Shown here: piece after piece, positions 1 through 26,155 of the stretch
Numbering within the stretch: the first letter of the stretch is position 1
How the letters are laid out: every line of letters begins with the position of its first letter
DNA from: a virus
Virus record (IMG/VR): IMGVR_UViG_3300031566_000301
Coordinates: 1-27,353 of that record
Length of the DNA stretch: 27,353 nt
Direction: 5' to 3' (one strand)
Made by a program: the position numbers and the translations under genes
The notes under the pieces: generated by a model
Told to the model about the DNA's origin: nothing
Seen by the model: only the letters and a program-made list of their open reading frames with translations
Databases searched by the model: none

Positions 1-1525
1 TGGAGAAGGATTCTGAAGCACCTGTAACCATTCCTTTAAGAGATTCCAGAAAATTATTCATTAATCCTACGACTTCACCAAACCATGGAATCATAGAATT
101 TATTTGTATAGATGACCAGCTATTTATTTTTCCAACACCTGCAGCAAGAAATTCAAATCGACCATTAGGATGTTCAATAAGTTTCGCTAATTTAAAAGCA
201 TCATTACAAGTCTTTAAAGCTACAACCATTTCTTTTGAATCTTGCCCTTCAAAACTACCGGCTTGTTCTGTCTCTTTTTTATCCCCGCAAGCTCTTATGA
301 TATAATAATAGTTTAAAGCTGGTACTTTTTTGCCCGTGTCATCTATATAATAAGGTATTTGTAGTTTCGTACCTTCTATTACAGCCTCTTCTGTATTTAT
401 AAAAAGATCTGTATATTTTAAAGAAGGGCTCACACCGGCCGGTACATAAACCGGTTTACCTTCATTGAAGTCTGGATCATTATAAATCCTTACTTCCCTT
501 TCAGGGTATGCTATAGGGACATCTTTTTCATCATTTCTAAAAATATTCAAGAACCATGTACGTATAATAGAAATTAAACCCAATTCTCCAGTTTCTTTAT
601 CATCCTGAAGTGTCCTTGGTATATATTCCTCAACCTGAGTAGTTCCTCCAGGAATTCGACTTCGATAAATATTAAAACCTACTGCTGTGTATGTCTGATC
701 CCATTCCAGTTGTACTCCATATTTCTGCTTCGTAGCATCGTCAGGATCTGTAAAATATCCACAAAAGCCTTGAATATTAGCAGGAGGCGTAGGTCTCATA
801 TTCAGGCCAAACCCTCCCATAAAATCAAATATAGACGCCATCTGAGACATTCCTATCCACATATCCGATAAAATCTCAGTGTCAAGCATCACAACCAGAC
901 CACCTACATAATCATTAACAGAGAAAATAGGCCTTTCTTTATCTTTTGGATTTTCAACAGAACTTTCTAACCGAGTTAAGAATCCTTCAAAACCCCCACG
1001 TAATTCATTCATTGAACCTATATCACCAGAGGATTTTGACAACAATGCTGGTGGGGCTATGACATTAGTAAAAATGCCAACTTTAAATATATCATCTGTG
1101 TATTCATTCAATTTATTCTGAGCCAAATTAATAGCACTAAGAATGAGTTTCGAAAAAGAATTAAACCCATTAAGAAAGAGTTCTATAATCCTGAGGATTT
1201 TTCCAAGCTGTGAAATAATTACATTTAAGGCATTTAAACTCTTTTCAAGTCCTGAAGTAATATTACCTATAAAGTCAAGACCTATGCTTAATGAAGCTGT
1301 TTTCCATTCATCGGTACCCACAATTCCCGCACCAGGAGGACTCCCCAAACCTATAAGTTCTGAGAGATCACTAGGAATTTCACTGACGACTTCTGATAAA
1401 GAATTTATGAAGTCCTGAAGATCAGCTGTGTCTTCTTGAGATTTCTGACCAGGATCAAGAACGTAGGGTTTCACATAAGGAAAGGCTTTTAACTGTCCCT
1501 TCAAATCAATTTGACTACTATTCAT
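1..1525 (-). CDS. Virion structural protein with fibronectin type III-like domain (3' end off the window)
   Basis: An open frame runs from an ATG at 1525 to the left edge (508 codons) with no stop, so the C-terminus is missing. The start follows the 74-aa gene's TAA by one base, showing tight operon packing. Residues ~70-115 are hydrophobic and helix-prone (contains NALNVIISQLGKILRII). Around residue 275 the stretch LEWDQTYTAVGFNIYRS has the look of a fibronectin type III strand pattern (hydrophobic-x-W, then 'FNIYRS'). FnIII-like domains are common on exposed tail and baseplate proteins, where they are thought to aid surface contacts. It lies last in the visible baseplate cluster, so a peripheral baseplate or fibre-attachment role is inferred. 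No enzyme motif is visible. The reading frame is secure; the function is only a class-level guess. Confidence 0.82.
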   Translation of the reverse strand, partial: MNSSQIDLKGQLKAFPYVKPYVLDPGQKSQEDTADLQDFINSLSEVVSEIPSDLSELIGLGSPPGAGIVGTDEWKTASLSIGLDFIGNITSGLEKSLNALNVIISQLGKILRIIELFLNGFNSFSKLILSAINLAQNKLNEYTDDIFKVGIFTNVIAPPALLSKSSGDIGSMNELRGGFEGFLTRLESSVENPKDKERPIFSVNDYVGGLVVMLDTEILSDMWIGMSQMASIFDFMGGFGLNMRPTPPANIQGFCGYFTDPDDATKQKYGVQLEWDQTYTAVGFNIYRSRIPGGTTQVEEYIPRTLQDDKETGELGLISIIRTWFLNIFRNDEKDVPIAYPEREVRIYNDPDFNEGKPVYVPAGVSPSLKYTDLFINTEEAVIEGTKLQIPYYIDDTGKKVPALNYYYIIRACGDKKETEQAGSFEGQDSKEMVVALKTCNDAFKLAKLIEHPNGRFEFLAAGVGKINSWSSIQINSMIPWFGEVVGLMNNFLESLKGMVTGASESFS

Positions 1526-1526
1526 A

Positions 1527-1751
1527 TTATAATCTCGTGAATTTTTTTAGGTCTTTCTCAACCTGTTTACTGTAATCAACAATAGAGTGAGCCATAATAC
1601 CCGTCAGCTCTCTTAATTTCTTAATCATTTTATTATCAGGATTAGTCCTTTTCCACTGTAAAGGAGCTAACCCACCAGGCCCCGATTGATCTGTAGAGCT
1701 GACTGATTCGACTCGATCTGTTTTTCGATCTGCTTGAGTCTCGCGTAACAT
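1527..1751 (-). CDS. Small hypothetical protein overlapping the giant baseplate gene
   Basis: This 74-residue frame starts at an ATG at 1751, preceded by a good Shine-Dalgarno sequence (AGGAGACAGGG just before the ATG), and ends with TAA at 1527. Its first ~28 codons overlap the end of the 2100-aa gene in another frame. That is a long overlap for this operon, where junctions are otherwise -1 to +21 bases. The N-terminal part is polar and low-complexity. The C-terminal half is a charged helix (MIKKLRELTGIMAHS, then KQVEKDLKKF) of the kind seen in small coiled-coil accessory proteins. The next gene starts one base after its stop, which supports a genuine cistron. The ribosome site and the fit between neighbours argue that it is real; function unknown. 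A shorter form starting at an internal ATG (MIKKLREL) is possible. Confidence 0.6.
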   Translation of the reverse strand: MLRETQADRKTDRVESVSSTDQSGPGGLAPLQWKRTNPDNKMIKKLRELTGIMAHSIVDYSKQVEKDLKKFTRL

Positions 1752-4700
1752 CCCTGTCTCCTGTTAAATCGATTGTTTGCCCATATATATAAATCACTGG
1801 GATCACCTTTATTATCTCCGGTATTCTCCCGTAAAATTTCCTCACTGAATATATTACTAATAATCTGATCCTGCCTGGTCTCATCTATATATTCTATTCT
1901 ATCTACCAGGTAATCCCTCCGGTCTCTTGCAAAATCTAAACGCAAATCAATTATCCTATCTGAAATTGTCTGATAATTAGCACAGGTATCTCTCAGCCCT
2001 GAATATACTGTGGCATCGAGAGGTCCGGACCCTAACACAAAAGCCTCACAGAAATCTGAATCATACATGACAGGTCCCTGTACGAGTACACCGGTAATTG
2101 TTGCATCAATACCAGTCTTCATATCGGATACAAGAGGATAATTATCATACGAGAATATCTTTTGTATTGTTGTTGTATCCTCTTCCCATAGAAGATTTAC
2201 AGATGTTAAATCTATTGCATATCTTATGTCCTTCATTTCAAAATAGACCTTAAATAATGGTGTAACCGGAAGCCTTATAAATGTCCCAGGAGCCAAAGCA
2301 TCTATTGATCCTGAAGCTGAGGGTAATATAGCATAACTGTAGGAAGGGTCAAATTTGCCTTCAACAGTCATCCCAGGAATACCATCTATTGCAGTCTCTA
2401 ATATACCCAGTGTTGAATATGAGGCATACAAAAATTCTGATTGAATTAAACTAGGTCCAATTGCTCTCCATATCGATAAAGCTGTCATATCAGTTTTATA
2501 AATTGGTAAAGAATCTGTGAATAGACCTGTACCGGGAGACGACGATTCCATTGTGCCACTGTCAGGTATAAGGGTTGAATAAGAATAATTAGAATCAAAA
2601 TAGCCCACTACATTAACATTTGGTACAGTATTTACAGCAGATCGAAGATCTCCAACAGTTGGATATGAGAAATAAGTGAAAGATGTTTGAGTCCCATCAT
2701 AGGAATAAATTGCCAATGCTGAACTATCCGCTATATAAGTGTGAGGAGTAACATCTGTTGAATACATATTGAATAATAATGTAGAGACATCAGATGAATG
2801 CATACTGAATGCAGGAGAAAGATTTCCAGAATAAACCGACACACCTGGGTAACCTGAAATGGGTGATGCTAAAGTTAATTGTAAATTTGTATAATCATAA
2901 TTAGTATCATATCCCGTATAAGAGACTCCAAAGCCACTCACGGCATTGATACCGTTCATAAGACTTTGTACAGAGGGGTATGAACCGTAATTAAATACTT
3001 TACTCTGTAGACCTCCAGTCTCACCCCAATTGAGACTATAATCTGTAAGAGTCGTCTTAAATGCAGTGCCTGTAAATAAAGGATCATTTCTCAGAGTAAA
3101 TATTAATTGAGAATTAAAATGGAATGTTATCTGATTGTCCACACTATAAGAACCATCTACATAAGAAGAAGTGTCCCATCCCGTCCAGGAACCATCTACC
3201 GGCAAACCATTATTTTCATAAGTGAGTTGGGGGGTGAAGGATGTCCCATCAATCGTAGCATTTAAAAATCGTACCTCATATCCTGCAGGAGTCTCAAGAA
3301 TAAAAGTATCCTGTCCTCCTATAGAAATTATACCTGGACCTGAGGATTGATCCACTCCAGTACCATCGAGAGTACCGCGGATATACTGAGTAGAATCTGT
3401 AAAATCAAGCACCCATTTCCAGTTATTTGTTTTATCCTGCCAATCAGGATAAATATCAGCAGCATAATTCCGGGCTGCAATAGCATTTGTCCGGGCAATC
3501 AAGGCTTTATTATAAGCTATGAGCGAATTGCCATAAGAGGGTAATGTAGACTCTTGAAGGATAGTACCTAAAGCACTTACCTCTGTATTTAATCTTGTCA
3601 CCTCAACATTCAGATAACCAAGTTCTGTTCCGACACGTTGATAAACATCATCCACAACATCAAGAGTTGTAGAATCTATACGATTTAATTTATTTAAAAG
3701 ACCTGTAGCATCTATCTGTTCCAAATCAGCTATTTCATTTCCTGGAATATCAGGGTCAGGATCAGTACGAAAAGCCAATTCATAAAGTTCTTGGTTATCC
3801 ATTAACAACTCAGGAGTGTGGTCTGCAGTATTTAAATTTCCATAGACAACTTGTCCAGGAGTGAAGCCTAATTTCGAGACAGCAGAACCAGTACCCAATT
3901 GAATTTTATTTGCAACTCCATCTGATCTCAGAACTAATGTATTTCTATAACCATAAGTTGTATAAGGATCAACCACACGTTCTGCCGTACAGACCATTCC
4001 GGGAATTGCTGAGGTCAATATTTTAGCAACATCCTCAGCATCATAGCGCTTTACCTGTAATAATAAATAAAGTAGTAAAGGGAGTACCGGAGGAACTAAT
4101 GGGCCAGGAGGATCCTCAAATGTATATGAGTAATAAACACCATCTATATAACAATTAAAAACGTCTGGTGTACCAAAAGGAGGAGGAGTGCCATCAAGAT
4201 CAAAATTTCCTGATTTTGTTCCGACGACTTTAAAACCTAAATTACCATCATCATCATAAATAGGATAGGTCGTTCCAGCTCCATAATAAGAGCCCTCAGG
4301 ATTAATGCTAAGATTCGTTGAGGTCTCTATAAAGGGCTGAGTAAGAATTATACTGGAACTATTGGGTACATTGGCTATTTGATACCTCTTAGTAGAATCC
4401 GTAAACCCTATGAAATCCCCTGTAGTTAATTGATTTGTCCAATCAGCACTACCCACATTACTTACTGCCACACTTCCATTCGTGAAGACAGCCCCAGTGG
4501 TATTAAAATATCCGGTTAAAGGATTAACCCACATGGGTTCAAGATTGGTATAATCAGGATTAGGGAATATCCTATTAACAGTCTTTGCTCCTGCAGCCTG
4601 TTGAGCCTTATTAAAGATACCGTCATTATTGAATAGCCGGTAGCCAAAAGCTGCATCATACTCATTACCCATGGCCTCAATACGGTTACTGAAGAAATCA

Positions 4701-7700
4701 TATATCTTCTCAAAAACACGACACTCTATCTCAGTATCCTTACGCAGATATTCTGTATTTGTCAGGCCTCCCTGGGTTGCTCCCGAATTAGTATCACCTG
4801 TTAAACTCCCACCTTGACCCACATTATCATTAAGCTGAAAAGCTTCTTCTGTCATCCGAGGTATAGATACCGTTTCAAAGAAATCTCTTTGATCCAAAAC
4901 CTGGACATAAAACTGGTCCAAATTATCGTATTCAAATGAAGCACTTATTTTAGACCCGGCCGGCAGACCTACAAAAAAGTTTACTGAATATTCTACCTGA
5001 CTATCACTGAGAAATTCACGACCCATATAATCCAGTTTATATCGATCTTTTCTCTGCAGAGGATTATCAAGTAAAATAGTCCCAGCATCACTTACAGTAT
5101 AAGAAGTCGTATCTGTATAAACTGTAGCATCAATATCCTGATATCTCAGAGCACTGTATACAGATAAGATTGTACTGGAATCTGTATAGATCGATATGTT
5201 CTCTACCGGAATAATCTTATCACTCTGCCATAAAGGTACATATGTTGTCACGGTTAAAGAAGAGATGTTTGAGGAATCAATAGCTGATGACATATCTCCT
5301 AGAGTAGGGTTACTCTCATAAAGAAATGTCGTACCATCTATCTGCAGCCCAGTAGCATCCGCATTGACTTTAATTATAGCGCCATCATTACTCATGATGA
5401 AACCGGGTTGGTCCATGATAGTTACCACAGGCATAAAAGGGGTAATTTCTGTGGTAGCCTCTACATAAACAGGATGATCACTACACTCTATACTACCGAG
5501 ACTTGTAGAATCCGTAGCATCATAAACAATCTCTGAATTTAATGATATTACATTAGCTTTCAGATCACTATCATAGGTAGCCCCATTAACCTGGTAAGAA
5601 TCTGTACCTATTCTAAGGATAGTGTACTGTCTAAAAAGATTCCGTATGTTCTCTCCCGGGAAAGTCACTGACATAGAACCAGAAGTTATCGGACTAGCCG
5701 TCAGGGGTACAGTATTGAAAATAACCGGATCATCTGAAATGTACATCTTAGGATTAATTACATCTTCCGGTATAGGCGTCGTTAATCCTAAAATTGTTCC
5801 ATAACCATCATAAGCACTACTATCTACCGTGAAATAAAATTGGGTAGCAGAATCAGGCTGTTGTAAATTTATCAAAGCACTAGTATCCACATAAGAGGTA
5901 AGGTCTGTACCTTCTATATAAATACTCTCGTCACCTTCTGACATGACAAGATAGTTTACTGTTATAGGAGCATACTCTGTTGTTTCATTAGCAAACTTAT
6001 AATCAATAAGGACTAAGTCATCTGCAACTAAACCTATTGACGTATTAATTGAGGTCTTTCGTAATGAAATGCGGCCTCCATCAATAGTCACTCCTGTCAA
6101 ATCATAATCTTTATCCTTATTCTCATTATAGATTCTCAGAATCTGAATATTAGCAGGGTCCAAAGCCACATTCACTAATTTGAATTCATAATTTTTAACA
6201 TTTGTAATAGTCAGGCGTGAATCATGAACAGTACAATACCATGCACCGCCCTCATAGGTCAGATCATTCACCTGTTTGGATAAAGGGGTATAACTAATGA
6301 CTATAGAATCATTATCTTCTAAATTTGTAGTAAATGAAATTCTTCCTGTTAAGTAACTAACAAAATAATCATCACCTTCATCAAGAATCGTTCCATTTTT
6401 TATAAGAAAGATAGATTGCTGTTTAACAGGGTATTGAGAAACTTCTATTATCTTCTGTCCTGCTGTACCTATTATCGTCTCATCAATTACCGGGGTAGTC
6501 TCCACCATATAATCGATTTGATAAATATCTCCTGAACCCGGATGATCTTGATCCCGGGGTTTCATTCGACCGGTATAGGTCTGAAATATTACATCATCGT
6601 TAATTTCAGGAGGGAATGATATTTTCTGCTTTGTACCATTCAAATAAATCTCAAATCCATAATCAATAATCTCACTATAACTAACACCCACATATTTAAC
6701 AATCTGCTCATCAATTGGAGATTCTGTTATCTCAAGAGTACCAGTATTATATTCAAGGACATAATCCTCATACACATTTTGTGATGTTCCATCAATATAA
6801 ATTTCCTCTGAACCAGGCATGATGTCTGTGATGTCTTGACCGGTAGCATCGGTAATCCGTATCTGCCCTGACTCAGTTAGAGAGGTATCAGGCTGTACAT
6901 TGTAAGCCTTATCCAAGAACATAAGGTTAGCCACTTTCCTGTCATCAGGAGGGGGAGGAGGCACATACACAGGCATTTGTGAATAACTAATAACATAGTC
7001 ACGTTCTCCGGCCGGGAACATGTCCTTTTTTACATCATTTATATAAAGTTCCATGGTCTCAGGATGAGGGACTACCGGAAGAGAAAATTGAAAAGTATCA
7101 TACTGAGTCTCCCGGGATAACACCAGAAAATCCTCTGTAGCCACATCCATTATATCAGGAGCACTCTCAGAAATAGAATTAGTAAATCTTAAAGTGATAC
7201 CATCCCATAAAGGTTGAAAACTGGTAGACGTAGTAACGTCATATCTTTTAATTTCTTCATAGGTCCACTTACCTGACTGATTATCATAATCAATATCATT
7301 CTTTGCGAATCGAATCTTTGTACGGCCTATTTTCCATCTCTTTGCTGTGTAATCACCGGTAGTGGTATCGCCGGTATAAGGGGACCATAAATCGAGAGAT
7401 GTGTTATCAAAGACCTCTTTTATTTTAAAGTACTCCTGGAAGCCATTATGCTTAATGAAGTCATCAGTAGCTAAATTAGCTAAACTATCGGACCAATCAG
7501 TTCCAGTACCTATAACGGAAGCATTTCCCTGAGTAAATGTAGCCTGCCCAGTCTCTGTTGTATTGGTGGCCACGTCGGGTTCAATAAGATAATCCCGATC
7601 AGAGAGTGCAAACGTAGTAGGCTTTGTTCCGTTAAATCCCGAGTTCCGGTCAATAACAAAAATGTCCGTTGCATCAATCCTTGTGATCTGAAAAGTGGAG

Positions 7701-19867: not shown

Positions 19868-20551
19868 TTACCCTATTGGCGTAAATCTTGTCGAACGAGC
19901 AGGATTAGTATCCAGTATTGAGTAAGGCTCAATATCAGAAACAGTGTTCGGATACAGACCTGGTCCGGCTAATATGTCTGACACATTAATCGTGACAGTT
20001 TCCTGCACGAGAGCCGCATCAGAGGCATACGATACCGAATAATCTGATATCCAACATGCTTCAAAAAAAGTCAAAACTGCATACTGTCTATAAATTCCTT
20101 TATCAGCATCAGTCGGGAATTGGGATACATCACTTACATTTTGAGCAACACTGCCGTCAGTATTCTCGGCAGCAATACCACTAAACACAACTTCTTGACG
20201 TATATCAAAAGGCCAACGGTGATGCTTCAACGATCTTGCAATACCATCAACACCAGCTTTATATCCAAACACCTGGAATACATTAGATAAATATAGAGCA
20301 GTCCTCGTAACTGATATTGTCATAGGATCAGTTACAGAAGGTACGAGCTCGGCTATTTGGTCTCCAAAACCTATACCCCTCACAGGTTCAATTGTCCTTG
20401 CTTCAGACGGATCAAAAGTAGCTATAACACCGATCTGTACTAATTGACCAGTCGCATTATATGCAAATATTCGGTTTTTAGAGCTAATAACCGATAGGGT
20501 ATTTGGCGTTACACCTTGTCTGAAAATATAGCTATCAACATCTCTAGCCAT
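19868..20551 (-). CDS. Tail tube protein
   Basis: The 227-aa protein forms the inner tube through which DNA passes. Its length and pattern suit the contractile-tail tube family: a short N-terminal segment, then a beta-rich body with GFGDQIAELVPSVTDPMT and an 'isVtRtalYlsn' element followed by a long loop containing RWPFDIRQEV. It closes with 'FFEACWISDYSVSY' and 'V.ETVTINVSDI', which is the usual end of tube proteins (xx..vsy...d..v.E.vtl....). A strong ribosome site (AAGGAGG) 6 bases before the ATG agrees with a high-copy protein. Normally the tube gene directly follows the sheath gene; here the EK-rich gene and the IsrB locus lie between them. Confidence 0.85.
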   Translation of the reverse strand: MARDVDSYIFRQGVTPNTLSVISSKNRIFAYNATGQLVQIGVIATFDPSEARTIEPVRGIGFGDQIAELVPSVTDPMTISVTRTALYLSNVFQVFGYKAGVDGIARSLKHHRWPFDIRQEVVFSGIAAENTDGSVAQNVSDVSQFPTDADKGIYRQYAVLTFFEACWISDYSVSYASDAALVQETVTINVSDILAGPGLYPNTVSDIEPYSILDTNPARSTRFTPIG

Positions 20552-20582
20552 GAAATACCTCCTTTATCTAATTCAATTTTAA

Positions 20583-21509
20583 TCAAAATGTGTACACTAA
20601 ACCACCAAATCTTTGTAATAATACTGTCTTGTTATAAGACACGGGAAAATTATCACTCCATTTAGTTCTTAATGTGATACAGTTAGCTTTTAAACTTCGC
20701 ACAGAACCTACTATGGTACCCCTTGTTCTATGACTGGATTTTACTAAATCATAGTGGCGTAAACCTTTTTTTTCTGTACAAGTCTTAGATGGATTAGACT
20801 CCCAAATCTTTGCCCTTTTCGGTTTAATTTGGTACTCTATTCCAACCAATTTATTACTCTCAACTATTGCACAAGCATCATGGCTATGTCTTTTAGTAAG
20901 ATCAAGTTCAAGTCTTACTTGCTTGGTGATATAGCCAAACGTGACTTCATATACCATACCTAACTTATGAATTTGATCATGTAAATATTCTTTTCCAATT
21001 TCAACTAAAGAGAAAAATTTACCATAAGATTTTTTTGCATGATTAAAAAAAACTTCCTCAACCTTTACTTTCTTGATATTGAGCCTTTTTCTTAAATCAT
21101 TTATAACTCTGATAATACAATCCTTTTTTTGCCTAATGCTCGGAACAATTTTAGATTTAATTCTGTTATTAAACTTTGGTTGACGATTTCTCAATCTAAA
21201 ACGTCTAGCTCTGCGATAATTTCTCCGTTCTTCTACTTTCCTGCTTACATCCTGTCGATGGTTAAGTTGAGCATGAAATACTATTTCATTTGTTTTAACA
21301 TTTTTAACAGCAATACCAACATACTTAGCTCCATCATCTACACCGACTTCAAATTCACCTATTGGATAACTCACTTTTCGATTGAGTTGAATGGTGAAGG
21401 GAACGACTTGTTTAACCACGGCTTTACCTTGATCGAGTAATTGTCTTGCTCGTCTTGGCTTAGTAGGTAAACAAGGTCTACTTTCACTATCAATTACAAA
21501 GACTTTCAT
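20583..21509 (-). CDS. isrB: IsrB-type RNA-guided nickase (RuvC only, IscB family)
   Basis: About 308 aa from the ATG at 21509 (a TTG one codon upstream is less well spaced from GAGG). The N-terminal PLMP/RRXRR domain reads PCLPTKPRRARQLLDQGKA. RuvC-I is FEVGVDDGAKYVGIAV with D58; the arginine-rich bridge helix is RRNYRRARRFRLRNRQPKF; RuvC-II is VKVEEVFFN (E151/E152); RuvC-III is KRHSHDACAIV (H208, D211). Only ~55 residues separate RuvC-II and RuvC-III, including TFGYITKQVRLEL, with no HNH motif. This is the IsrB arrangement, not IscB. The C-terminal ~80 residues match the target-adjacent-motif-interacting region and appear complete. All nuclease residues are present, so omega-RNA-guided nicking of the non-target strand is expected from the family. 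No TnpA is nearby; the next gene starts 31 bases later. Slightly shorter than typical IsrB (~350 aa). Confidence 0.88.
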   Translation of the reverse strand: MKVFVIDSESRPCLPTKPRRARQLLDQGKAVVKQVVPFTIQLNRKVSYPIGEFEVGVDDGAKYVGIAVKNVKTNEIVFHAQLNHRQDVSRKVEERRNYRRARRFRLRNRQPKFNNRIKSKIVPSIRQKKDCIIRVINDLRKRLNIKKVKVEEVFFNHAKKSYGKFFSLVEIGKEYLHDQIHKLGMVYEVTFGYITKQVRLELDLTKRHSHDACAIVESNKLVGIEYQIKPKRAKIWESNPSKTCTEKKGLRHYDLVKSSHRTRGTIVGSVRSLKANCITLRTKWSDNFPVSYNKTVLLQRFGGLVYTF

Positions 21510-21512
21510 CAA

Positions 21513-21700
21513 AAAGCCTCATTTAAGAGGAAACTAAATAGTTATTGTTGTCCTCGGCCATGTCGCCAACGGATTATTCAGAACTGGACACATTCTGACG
21601 TCCTAAATGTTGACTGACGTAGTTGGACATTTCACCCAAACAGCAGGGCTTAATTACCGACTTAACCTCAGAGCTTCTCAAATATGATTTGATTTTCATG
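21513..21700 (-). ncRNA. Putative omega RNA (HEARO-like) of the IsrB system
   Basis: The ~260-base gap between the EK-rich gene and isrB lies on the side where IscB/IsrB omega RNAs are encoded, and is visibly richer in G and C than its surroundings. Possible helices on the minus strand are GCCC/GGGU around a TGCTGTTT loop; AACT/AGTT enclosing ACATT/AATGT; GTTG/CAAC enclosing GGC-GACATG-GCC; and CCTC/GAGG just before the ATG. CCAAC and GTTGG could add a long-range pairing. The guide would be at the 5' end, near 21690-21720, taken from flanking phage sequence. Boundaries are guesses; a covariance-model search would settle it. Confidence 0.65.
21517..21530 (-). promoter_or_regulatory. Hairpin covering the isrB ribosome binding site
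   Basis: CCTC and GAGG, separated by TTAAAT, can pair just before the ATG; GAGG is the isrB Shine-Dalgarno sequence (7 bases from ATG). The structure is short, but it would reduce translation of the nickase when formed and couple omega RNA folding to isrB expression. Confidence 0.45.
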
Positions 21701-21771
21701 GATTCTTTCAATTCCAATAAATTCCATTAGCTGTTATAAGCTCCTTAAAAGGTTATTATCTTTGAAAAAAT

Positions 21772-22791
21772 TTATTTAAAAAGTTGATCTAACGTCGCTG
21801 ATTCCTCAGGAGATAGATCGCCTATGTCTTCAGGCATTAAATAACTTGCAGCCATTTCGATCCCAAGAATTTCAGTATTAACAAGAGTAGGCTCTGTAGC
21901 TTCCTTCTCTTCTTCTGCTTCCTTAGTCTCTACTGGTTTCTCATCAGCCTTTTTCTCTTTGGCTTTTACTTCTTCCTCTTCTACAGGAACTTTTTCTTCC
22001 TTAGCTTCCTTATCTTTATTCATAGGACATTCAGGAGAATCTTTCATAGGACCTGTACCATCAGGAATACCGGGGCCTTTTTTCTTTCCGGCCTCTTTCT
22101 CTTTTTCTACTTCATCATCTTTAGCAGGGTCACTTTCAGAAGTTTTCTTCTTCTTAGCCTCTACTTCTTCTTTTTCTTCATCATCAGACTTACAAGCAGC
22201 CTTTTTATCACCTACAACATCGGCAATAAGGGCTCTCTTCACTGCTTCGGAAGCTTTCTTTGACCAAGCATCCAGATCAACCTGAGGAGTCTCCTCAGCC
22301 GCTTCTATGATCTCCTTAACTTCATCAGCTTTCTTTTTCTCTTTCTTAAAGTCAGGATTTTTTACTACCTCACCTTTATCATCCTTCATAAGCCAAGGCG
22401 GTAATCCTTTTCCAGCCTCAACCATACGCGACTCCAGTTCTTCATCACTCATCTTAGCAACGGCATAAGCCATTGTTCTTAAATCCTTCGCTATAGGATC
22501 ACTCTCTTGAAATGTCTGAGAGAGAATGTCCATACCTGCTATTAAAGTTTTGCGATCCATTGAAGATGCCTCACTTTCATTTGACATTTTATTTTTCGGT
22601 GGATAAAAATCAGAATTGTTTCTCTGATCCCCATAAGTCTTTAATGACTCAGCCTTTGCTTGCTCATAAGATTGATTCTTAAGAATTTCCTCAGGCCTGA
22701 AATACATACGACGTTCAATAGGTACTACAGTAGGGTCGAAAAGAAATTCCAATATATTGTTTGCTATTTTTTTCCTTTTTTCTAAATCCAT
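21772..22791 (-). CDS. Glu/Lys-rich protein of unknown function
   Basis: The 339-aa protein lies after the sheath gene and its hairpin, with AAAGGGAG as ribosome site before ATG. Residues 1-110 contain helices and a Pro-Glu segment (IERRMYFRPEEILK; NKMSNESEASSMDRKT). Residues ~140-290 are low-complexity Lys/Glu/Ala with repeated KK/EE runs (EEKEEVEAKKKKTSES, KAKEKKADEKP). The last ~40 residues are an ordinary folded-looking tail (GIEMAASYLMPEDIGDL). It resembles no recognised tail family. Possible roles include a chaperone-like or scaffold-like helper of sheath/tube assembly, but that is guesswork. The opposite-strand Ser/Phe-rich frame is only its mirror image. Confidence 0.75.
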   Translation of the reverse strand: MDLEKRKKIANNILEFLFDPTVVPIERRMYFRPEEILKNQSYEQAKAESLKTYGDQRNNSDFYPPKNKMSNESEASSMDRKTLIAGMDILSQTFQESDPIAKDLRTMAYAVAKMSDEELESRMVEAGKGLPPWLMKDDKGEVVKNPDFKKEKKKADEVKEIIEAAEETPQVDLDAWSKKASEAVKRALIADVVGDKKAACKSDDEEKEEVEAKKKKTSESDPAKDDEVEKEKEAGKKKGPGIPDGTGPMKDSPECPMNKDKEAKEEKVPVEEEEVKAKEKKADEKPVETKEAEEEKEATEPTLVNTEILGIEMAASYLMPEDIGDLSPEESATLDQLFK

Positions 22792-25741: not shown

Positions 25742-26155
25742 TTAAAATGGACCAGCTTCAGAAAACTGACACTGCCCCTTTTTTATTCTGTTTTTTCTGT
25801 GCTCATTTAAAGCTGATGAGTACTCGCTACGCTTTTCTTTGTCCTGAGTAGTTCCCACAGCCATTGCAGGAGATAAACTTCCTTTAGGTAACTTCATAAG
25901 TTCAGGTTTTCTTCCTACAAGTTTATGCCTTCGAGATTGACGATCATGGTACATCTGCCATCTTTTATTGGCTTCCCGACCTATCTTCATGTCAACAGGC
26001 TCTTTAGAAGTACCTCCCTCAATCACTGATGAAAAAGCACTAACTCGTAATTCAACATCACCTTTGCATTTTTTACAAACGACAATGTCATTATTTTTAA
26101 CGAGTTCTTCAAACTCATAATTGCACTTTGTACATTTGTATTCATGAAGAGGCAT
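25742..26155 (-). CDS. FmdB-like zinc-ribbon protein
   Basis: The 137-aa protein opens with MPLHEYKCTKCNYEFEEL, the FmdB-family zinc ribbon start, and has two CxxC pairs: C8/C11 and C27/C30. Beyond residue ~45 it is a basic, probably helical tail (EANKRWQMYHDRQSRRHK; EHRKNRIKKGQC). Such small ribbons bind zinc, and in phages they are found near structural genes with unknown role; nucleic-acid binding or assembly of a virion component are both possible. AGGAGATAGG precedes the ATG. It sits between a tail terminator-like gene and the sheath gene. Confidence 0.72.
   Translation of the reverse strand: MPLHEYKCTKCNYEFEELVKNNDIVVCKKCKGDVELRVSAFSSVIEGGTSKEPVDMKIGREANKRWQMYHDRQSRRHKLVGRKPELMKLPKGSLSPAMAVGTTQDKEKRSEYSSALNEHRKNRIKKGQCQFSEAGPF

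Follow-up and report, generated by a model that had tools for sequence, protein, structure and literature searches.

IsrB proteins are the probable antecedents of IscB, and hence of Cas9, and their natural role is unsettled. The described member DtIsrB, from Desulfovirgula thermocuniculi (PDB 8dmb), is a RuvC protein of 351 aa lacking an HNH domain; its omega RNA carries a 20-nt guide 5' of a 262-nt scaffold, the target-adjacent motifs (TAMs) of the tested IsrBs are NTGA, NTG or NTGG, and one IsrB assayed in vitro, K2IsrB, came from a viral metagenome contig (PMC9581776). We analyzed a 27,353-nt stretch of viral DNA (IMG/VR record IMGVR_UViG_3300031566_000301, positions 1 to 27,353; hereafter the window), probably part of a huge phage genome, in which an initial annotation had recognized an IsrB-type nickase gene and a putative omega RNA inside a tail operon. 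The window protein resembles DtIsrB in being an HNH-less RuvC protein with a PLMP domain, a bridge helix and an HNH-linker motif, and its upstream omega RNA resembles that of DtIsrB in having pseudoknots, a 3' RNA motif and a terminal hairpin that contains the isrB Shine-Dalgarno sequence. It differs in length (308 aa, with a scaffold of about 235 nt), in a C-terminal half too diverged for sequence alignment with DtIsrB, and in belonging to a subfamily that is so far phage-only. Our preferred reading, to which we assign a probability of about 0.55, is that gene and RNA form a compact selfish OMEGA element of about 1.18 kb, comprising an omega RNA and an IsrB-type nickase, whose left flank templates the guide and which spreads by homing. 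This reading is supported by the existence of empty alleles, the variety of occupied sites, a single copy per record, covariation in the RNA and its DtIsrB-like 3' motif, catalytic residues under purifying selection, the absence of an adjacent transposase TnpA, the occupation of one nucleotide position by RNAs of two lineages, and the match of one of their guides to empty relatives. Among the three functional options entertained in the initial annotation (homing, regulation of tail genes, degeneration), homing fits best.

Relatives of the gene downstream of the element are carried by at least 79 viral loci, and for about 20 of these relatives the site is empty and uninterrupted. In most of the closest relatives, the equivalent of the upstream glutamate/lysine (E/K)-rich gene is followed by 31-77 nt and then by the downstream gene. 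The junction in the empty sister L004 reads TATAACCTTTAAGGGGGTTTTCAATG, and the window flanks, when joined, read ATAACCTTTTAAGGAGGTATTTCATG, with equal gap length and equal spacing between the Shine-Dalgarno sequence and the ATG. Because the joined flanks restore the L004 spacing, and the site is whole on the right side, the element is placed in the ribosome-binding site. Judged by this sequence comparison, the insertion, at a structural gene's ribosome-binding site, has damaged no gene. The unoccupied form of the window locus consists of CAAAGATAATAACCTTTTAA followed by GGAGGTATTTCATG; occupied and empty alleles exist at this fixed site, and the interrupted stretch would be the recognition site. 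The arrangement is not an assembly chimera, since two other metagenome contigs (L002 and L003) share both junctions at about 100% identity. The proposed location inside a structural operon, between the E/K-rich gene and the downstream virion gene, is supported.

Scans of viral contigs recovered full-length homologs (L091-L094) with 69-81% identity, as well as L084, which is cut by the contig end. The contigs carrying these homologs come from other phages, and their insertion sites differ from that of the window; in two cases a comparison with relatives reveals a clean insertion. In L105, an empty relative of L092, the stop and start of two baseplate-type genes overlap, and joining the L092 flanks restores the frame; for L091, the two flanking genes abut in relatives. 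The occupied sites lie before a structural gene (the window and the locus L014), between baseplate genes (L092), before a baseplate-like gene (L091) and near a primase gene (L084). Since these sites are mutually unrelated and empty alleles exist, we conclude that the element is mobile and has been inserted into the operon rather than conserved as part of it. No member of the subfamily was recovered in two scans of GTDB genomes; each used two peptide patterns, so this is weak evidence. These observations bear on the suggestion that the element is a domesticated regulator, whose ribonucleoprotein (RNP) binds phage DNA or RNA and tunes expression of the downstream structural gene. That the element occupies this gene's ribosome-binding site and shares its orientation accords with such a role, but nearly all relatives lack the element at this locus, its homologs lie near unrelated genes, and it retains catalytic residues that a domesticated binder could lose. 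We therefore regard regulation as very improbable.

The gap upstream of isrB was correctly described as structured, although at 262 nt (21510-21771) it is longer than the ~190 bases first given. Similarly, the span 20583-21700 encloses the open reading frame (ORF) but truncates the RNA, because the scaffold extends from about 21744 to 21510. A conserved region of 205-235 nt lies 5' of the gene in each homolog, and the flank sequence varies between elements whereas the scaffold is conserved. Seven relatives share an RNA fold of 53 pairs in ten helices, with 97.4% of cells paired. Compensatory double changes occur at 15 pairs, a number equaled in none of 500 shuffles, and the signal collapses when the partners are slid by 1-3 columns. 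The fold includes two pseudoknots, which were picked by eye in the alignment prior to counting: the first pairs a 5' AACAG with a loop CUGUU, and the second a loop GUCC with a 3' GGAC. Folding of the window RNA as a single sequence gave a modest gain over shuffles (z -2.2). Comparison across relatives is decisive for the structure, and on that evidence the upstream RNA is real.

A covariance-model search of 21510-21771 had been proposed as a check. The Rfam HEARO model (RF02033) gave no match at E<=10 in the window and none in the relatives. However, four other RRXRR phage loci, IscB-bearing Staphylococcus phages among them, also went undetected by Rfam, so its silence here is uninformative. 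Our own model, built from the relatives with the window sequence included, matches the window RNA at 155.7 bits and detects one RNA copy per record; it found no match in the upstream regions of more distant viral IsrB loci. When the 3' motif was compared with the published DtIsrB omega RNA, L092 and L093 aligned at the equivalent place with none of 500 shuffles scoring as well, and the window's own motif was matched by 5 of 500 shuffles. Consensus scans for promoters and terminators returned site numbers not above those of shuffles. A GGAG at the left junction was considered as a target sequence and is disfavored, because L092 carries a compensatory change at that point (A-U to C-G) within the first stem.

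The ORF was listed as 20583-21512 on the minus strand with a TTG start at 21512; the natural start is probably the ATG at 21509, from which residues are numbered here. The protein matches Pfam RRXRR (E 3.5e-42), and its closest solved structures by sequence are HfmIscB (E 1.3e-35), TbaIscB and the IsrB nickase DtIsrB (8dmb; E 3.6e-27). Its score against the NCBIfam model guided_IscB is 166 bits, slightly under the cut-off of 175. No HNH match was found in the window protein by a Pfam scan that detects HNH in the Staphylococcus-phage IscBs used as a control. An alignment spanning phage relatives down to about 29% identity shows D58, E151, H208 and D211 to be invariant. The initial description of an HNH-less RuvC protein of IsrB type with these residues intact is thus upheld, as is the PLMP/RRXRR domain, with the amendment that the PLMP motif itself reads PCLP. 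The dN/dS ratio (nonsynonymous to synonymous substitution rates) is 0.04-0.07 among homolog pairs with unsaturated synonymous sites, and 0.07 between the window and L091, indicating strong purifying selection on the protein. AlphaFold2 prediction of the 308-aa protein from five sequences gave no usable model, with a predicted local distance difference test (pLDDT) score of 37.

Descent of the protein was considered from two sides. In the tree it stands beside HfmIscB and the Staphylococcus-phage IscBs (support 86/82), but a single HNH-less clade is not rejected by the approximately unbiased test (p-AU 0.069). Its C-terminus can be aligned by sequence with HfmIscB, not with DtIsrB. Nevertheless, the window protein (FNHAKKSYGKFFSLVEIGK) and DtIsrB (FNHARDRNGKYFSTVEIGK) have the HNH-linker motif in common, and this shared motif speaks for descent from IsrB over a separate loss of HNH.

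At the equivalent gene pair of another phage, L014, an insertion lies at exactly the nucleotide occupied in the window, in a gap of 364 nt. The RNA is present in this insertion, and both the protein gene and the RNA 3' motif are absent. In the downstream-gene and sheath trees, L014 falls among empty phages and the window beside the empty L004, which implies either two gains or one gain followed by several precise losses. In the RNA tree, L014 joins L084 with 98-100% support, apart from the window. Because the L014 RNA groups with a different element lineage, this single nucleotide position was probably invaded twice, by two lineages. The L014 guide finds close counterparts in empty relatives, with 12/12 seed positions matching in L011 and 17/20 positions in L013. 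L014 also shows that decay occurs in these elements, as expected if the window copy were a degenerate, functionless remnant. The window ORF, however, is full length, its catalytic residues are intact under strong purifying selection, with the low dN/dS relative to L091 given above, and its RNA is complete. We regard the degenerate-element option, too, as very improbable. The right half of the L014 insertion, after GTTGGC (L014 5840-5990), matches no known RNA family. A resemblance between the right ends of L014 and L094 was marginal (score 33; the highest of 200 shuffles was 30), and we make no claim from it.

A precedent for the proposed behavior is I-HmuI, a nicking homing endonuclease of phages, whose gene lies inside an intron and whose target is recognized by the protein alone. 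The likeness is in proposed function, in that nicking one strand of a phage allele that lacks the element leads to the element being copied into it; the window element lies between genes and would recognize its target by RNA. RNP formation, guide use, nicking, the TAM and homing are all steps that we infer, and the scheme is as follows. Whatever phage sequence flanks the element on its left would serve as the guide, located 5' in the RNA. If the 20 nt left of the scaffold are the guide, as homology with the DtIsrB omega RNA suggests, it follows that each copy would target its own site in the unoccupied state, and the RNP would be directed to the same site in phages without the element. There it would bind beside a TAM that adjoins the target in the unoccupied allele only, and its RuvC domain would nick this empty allele on the non-target strand. 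During co-infection, recombination repair would then copy the element in from the occupied genome. The carrier would be protected, because insertion parts the target from the TAM.

Several observations weigh against homing. The window guide fits no known empty allele well, and in the sister L004 it has 9/20 mismatches without gaps. The joined flanks at six sites begin GGA, GGA, GAA, GCA, GTA and GGG; these trinucleotides invite the speculative TAM GNA, but they do not establish a TAM common to all. Nor would homing account for how the element reaches new sites; for that, another mobility step is needed. Finally, the window and L014 RNAs are 68% identical, about the identity of their flanks, and L014 could on this account reflect vertical descent with several precise losses. 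We propose only tentatively the fuller version of the homing reading, in which these phages carry a free-standing RNA-guided homing nickase whose residence site rewrites its guide, and in which two lineages separately invaded one position, one of them being now RNA-only and maybe served in trans by the IsrB of another phage.

The main rival to homing is that the element is a non-autonomous transposon of the IS200/IS605 type, its ends mobilized in trans by the Y1 transposase (TnpA) of the host or of another element, with IsrB and the omega RNA serving only to restore donor-site copies after excision (retention). IsrB has been assigned to the IS200/IS605 superfamily (PMC9581776), the elements occupy unrelated sites, and the RNA-only copy in L014 is what non-autonomous elements lead one to expect. 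As the initial annotation stated for the window, TnpA is missing both within and next to every copy across nine records. The sole Y1 transposase in these records is part of a complete IS605 tnpA/tnpB element that the L094 phage carries separately, about 17 kb away from its IsrB element, which would suit supply in trans. TnpA was not found in the remaining records, one of them 195 kb long, although most are fragments in which it could be missed. The 3' end of isrB showed no significant synonymous constraint of the kind expected if it held the right end of a transposon, and the occupation of one nucleotide by two lineages is more expected under guide-directed entry. We judge movement by TnpA in trans a serious possibility, albeit one less probable than not and well short of homing. 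The tnpA and tnpB pair of the L094 phage is located at 1486-3186 of the contig L184, inside a large phage genome.

Viral IsrBs and phage-borne proteins of this general kind have precedents: besides K2IsrB (PMC9581776), there are HNH-less RRXRR proteins encoded by Microcystis phages and by further viral contigs. In Microcystis phage Ma-LMM01 (L085, NC_008562.1; locus positions 2182-3598), gp171 contains an RRXRR domain, lacks HNH and follows a 268-nt gap, and on these features an IsrB and a dedicated guide RNA are probably present in this cultured phage. Many further viral contigs (L196-L226) encode HNH-less RRXRR proteins of 329-371 aa, mostly after gaps of about 180-300 nt, and their RNAs do not match our model. 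Ma-LMM01 gp171 and these similar viral proteins are like the window protein in being phage-borne and HNH-less, with an upstream gap of about 200-270 nt and conserved RuvC residues, but they are only about 30% identical to it and their upstream regions lack a match to the RNA model. IscB/HEARO elements, including those of Staphylococcus Herelleviridae phages (PMC9755519, PMC13346280), likewise combine an RRXRR domain with an upstream RNA gap, presence in phages and, mostly, no TnpA nearby; unlike the window protein, their proteins carry HNH and are predicted double-strand cutters. Two Baoshanvirus phages of this group (L102 and L103) have HNH-bearing IscB genes after gaps of about 270 nt, with differing upstream neighbors. 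Rfam at gathering score detected no RNA at L102 or L103; HEARO has been reported in related Silviavirus phages (PMC13346280). As judged from the literature searched, the novelty seems to lie in a short subfamily, so far confined to phages, that has an RNA type of its own, defined boundaries and empty alleles, and in the repeated occupation of a single site. A transposase-free IsrB family borne by phages, with boundaries, empty alleles and an RNA-only second lineage, makes the choice between self-spread and retention by a nickase directly testable, and the 308-aa protein is a candidate small RNA-guided nickase.

Table 1. Features of the element and its surroundings in the window
Feature	Positions	Strand	Remarks
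Whole inserted element, about 1182 bp	20563..21744	-	Boundaries deduced from joined flanks against empty L004 and from boundaries of related elements; 1-3 nt ambiguity per end
isrB-type gene, 308 aa	20583..21509	-	Order: PLMP domain, RuvC-I, bridge helix, RuvC-II, IsrB-type HNH linker, RuvC-III, C-terminal region
Omega RNA scaffold, two pseudoknots	21510..21744	-	Conserved core 21544-21677
Putative guide, 20 nt, CAAAGATAATAACCTTTTAA; phage flank left of scaffold	21745..21764	-	Homology with DtIsrB omega RNA (PMC9581776)
Right flank GGAGGTATTTC; intact Shine-Dalgarno sequence of downstream gene; would hold TAM of empty allele	20552..20562	-	Empty-site comparison
Downstream virion gene, tube by position only; insertion immediately before it	19868..20551	-	
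Upstream E/K-rich gene; insertion immediately after it	21772..22791	-	ORF; gene order identical in empty relatives

The downstream gene had been named as the tail tube, an assignment consistent with its position; Pfam, PHROG, a PDB profile and an AlphaFold2 model (pLDDT 40) gave no confirmation of it. Six of 15 relatives of this gene weakly match phrog_985, annotated 'virion structural protein'. Upstream of the IsrB element in L084 lies a stretch of roughly 700 nt without a long ORF (6270-6980). A gene for a small FmdB-like zinc-ribbon protein lies amid the structural genes at window positions 25742-26155, and it is also present in the contig of L014.
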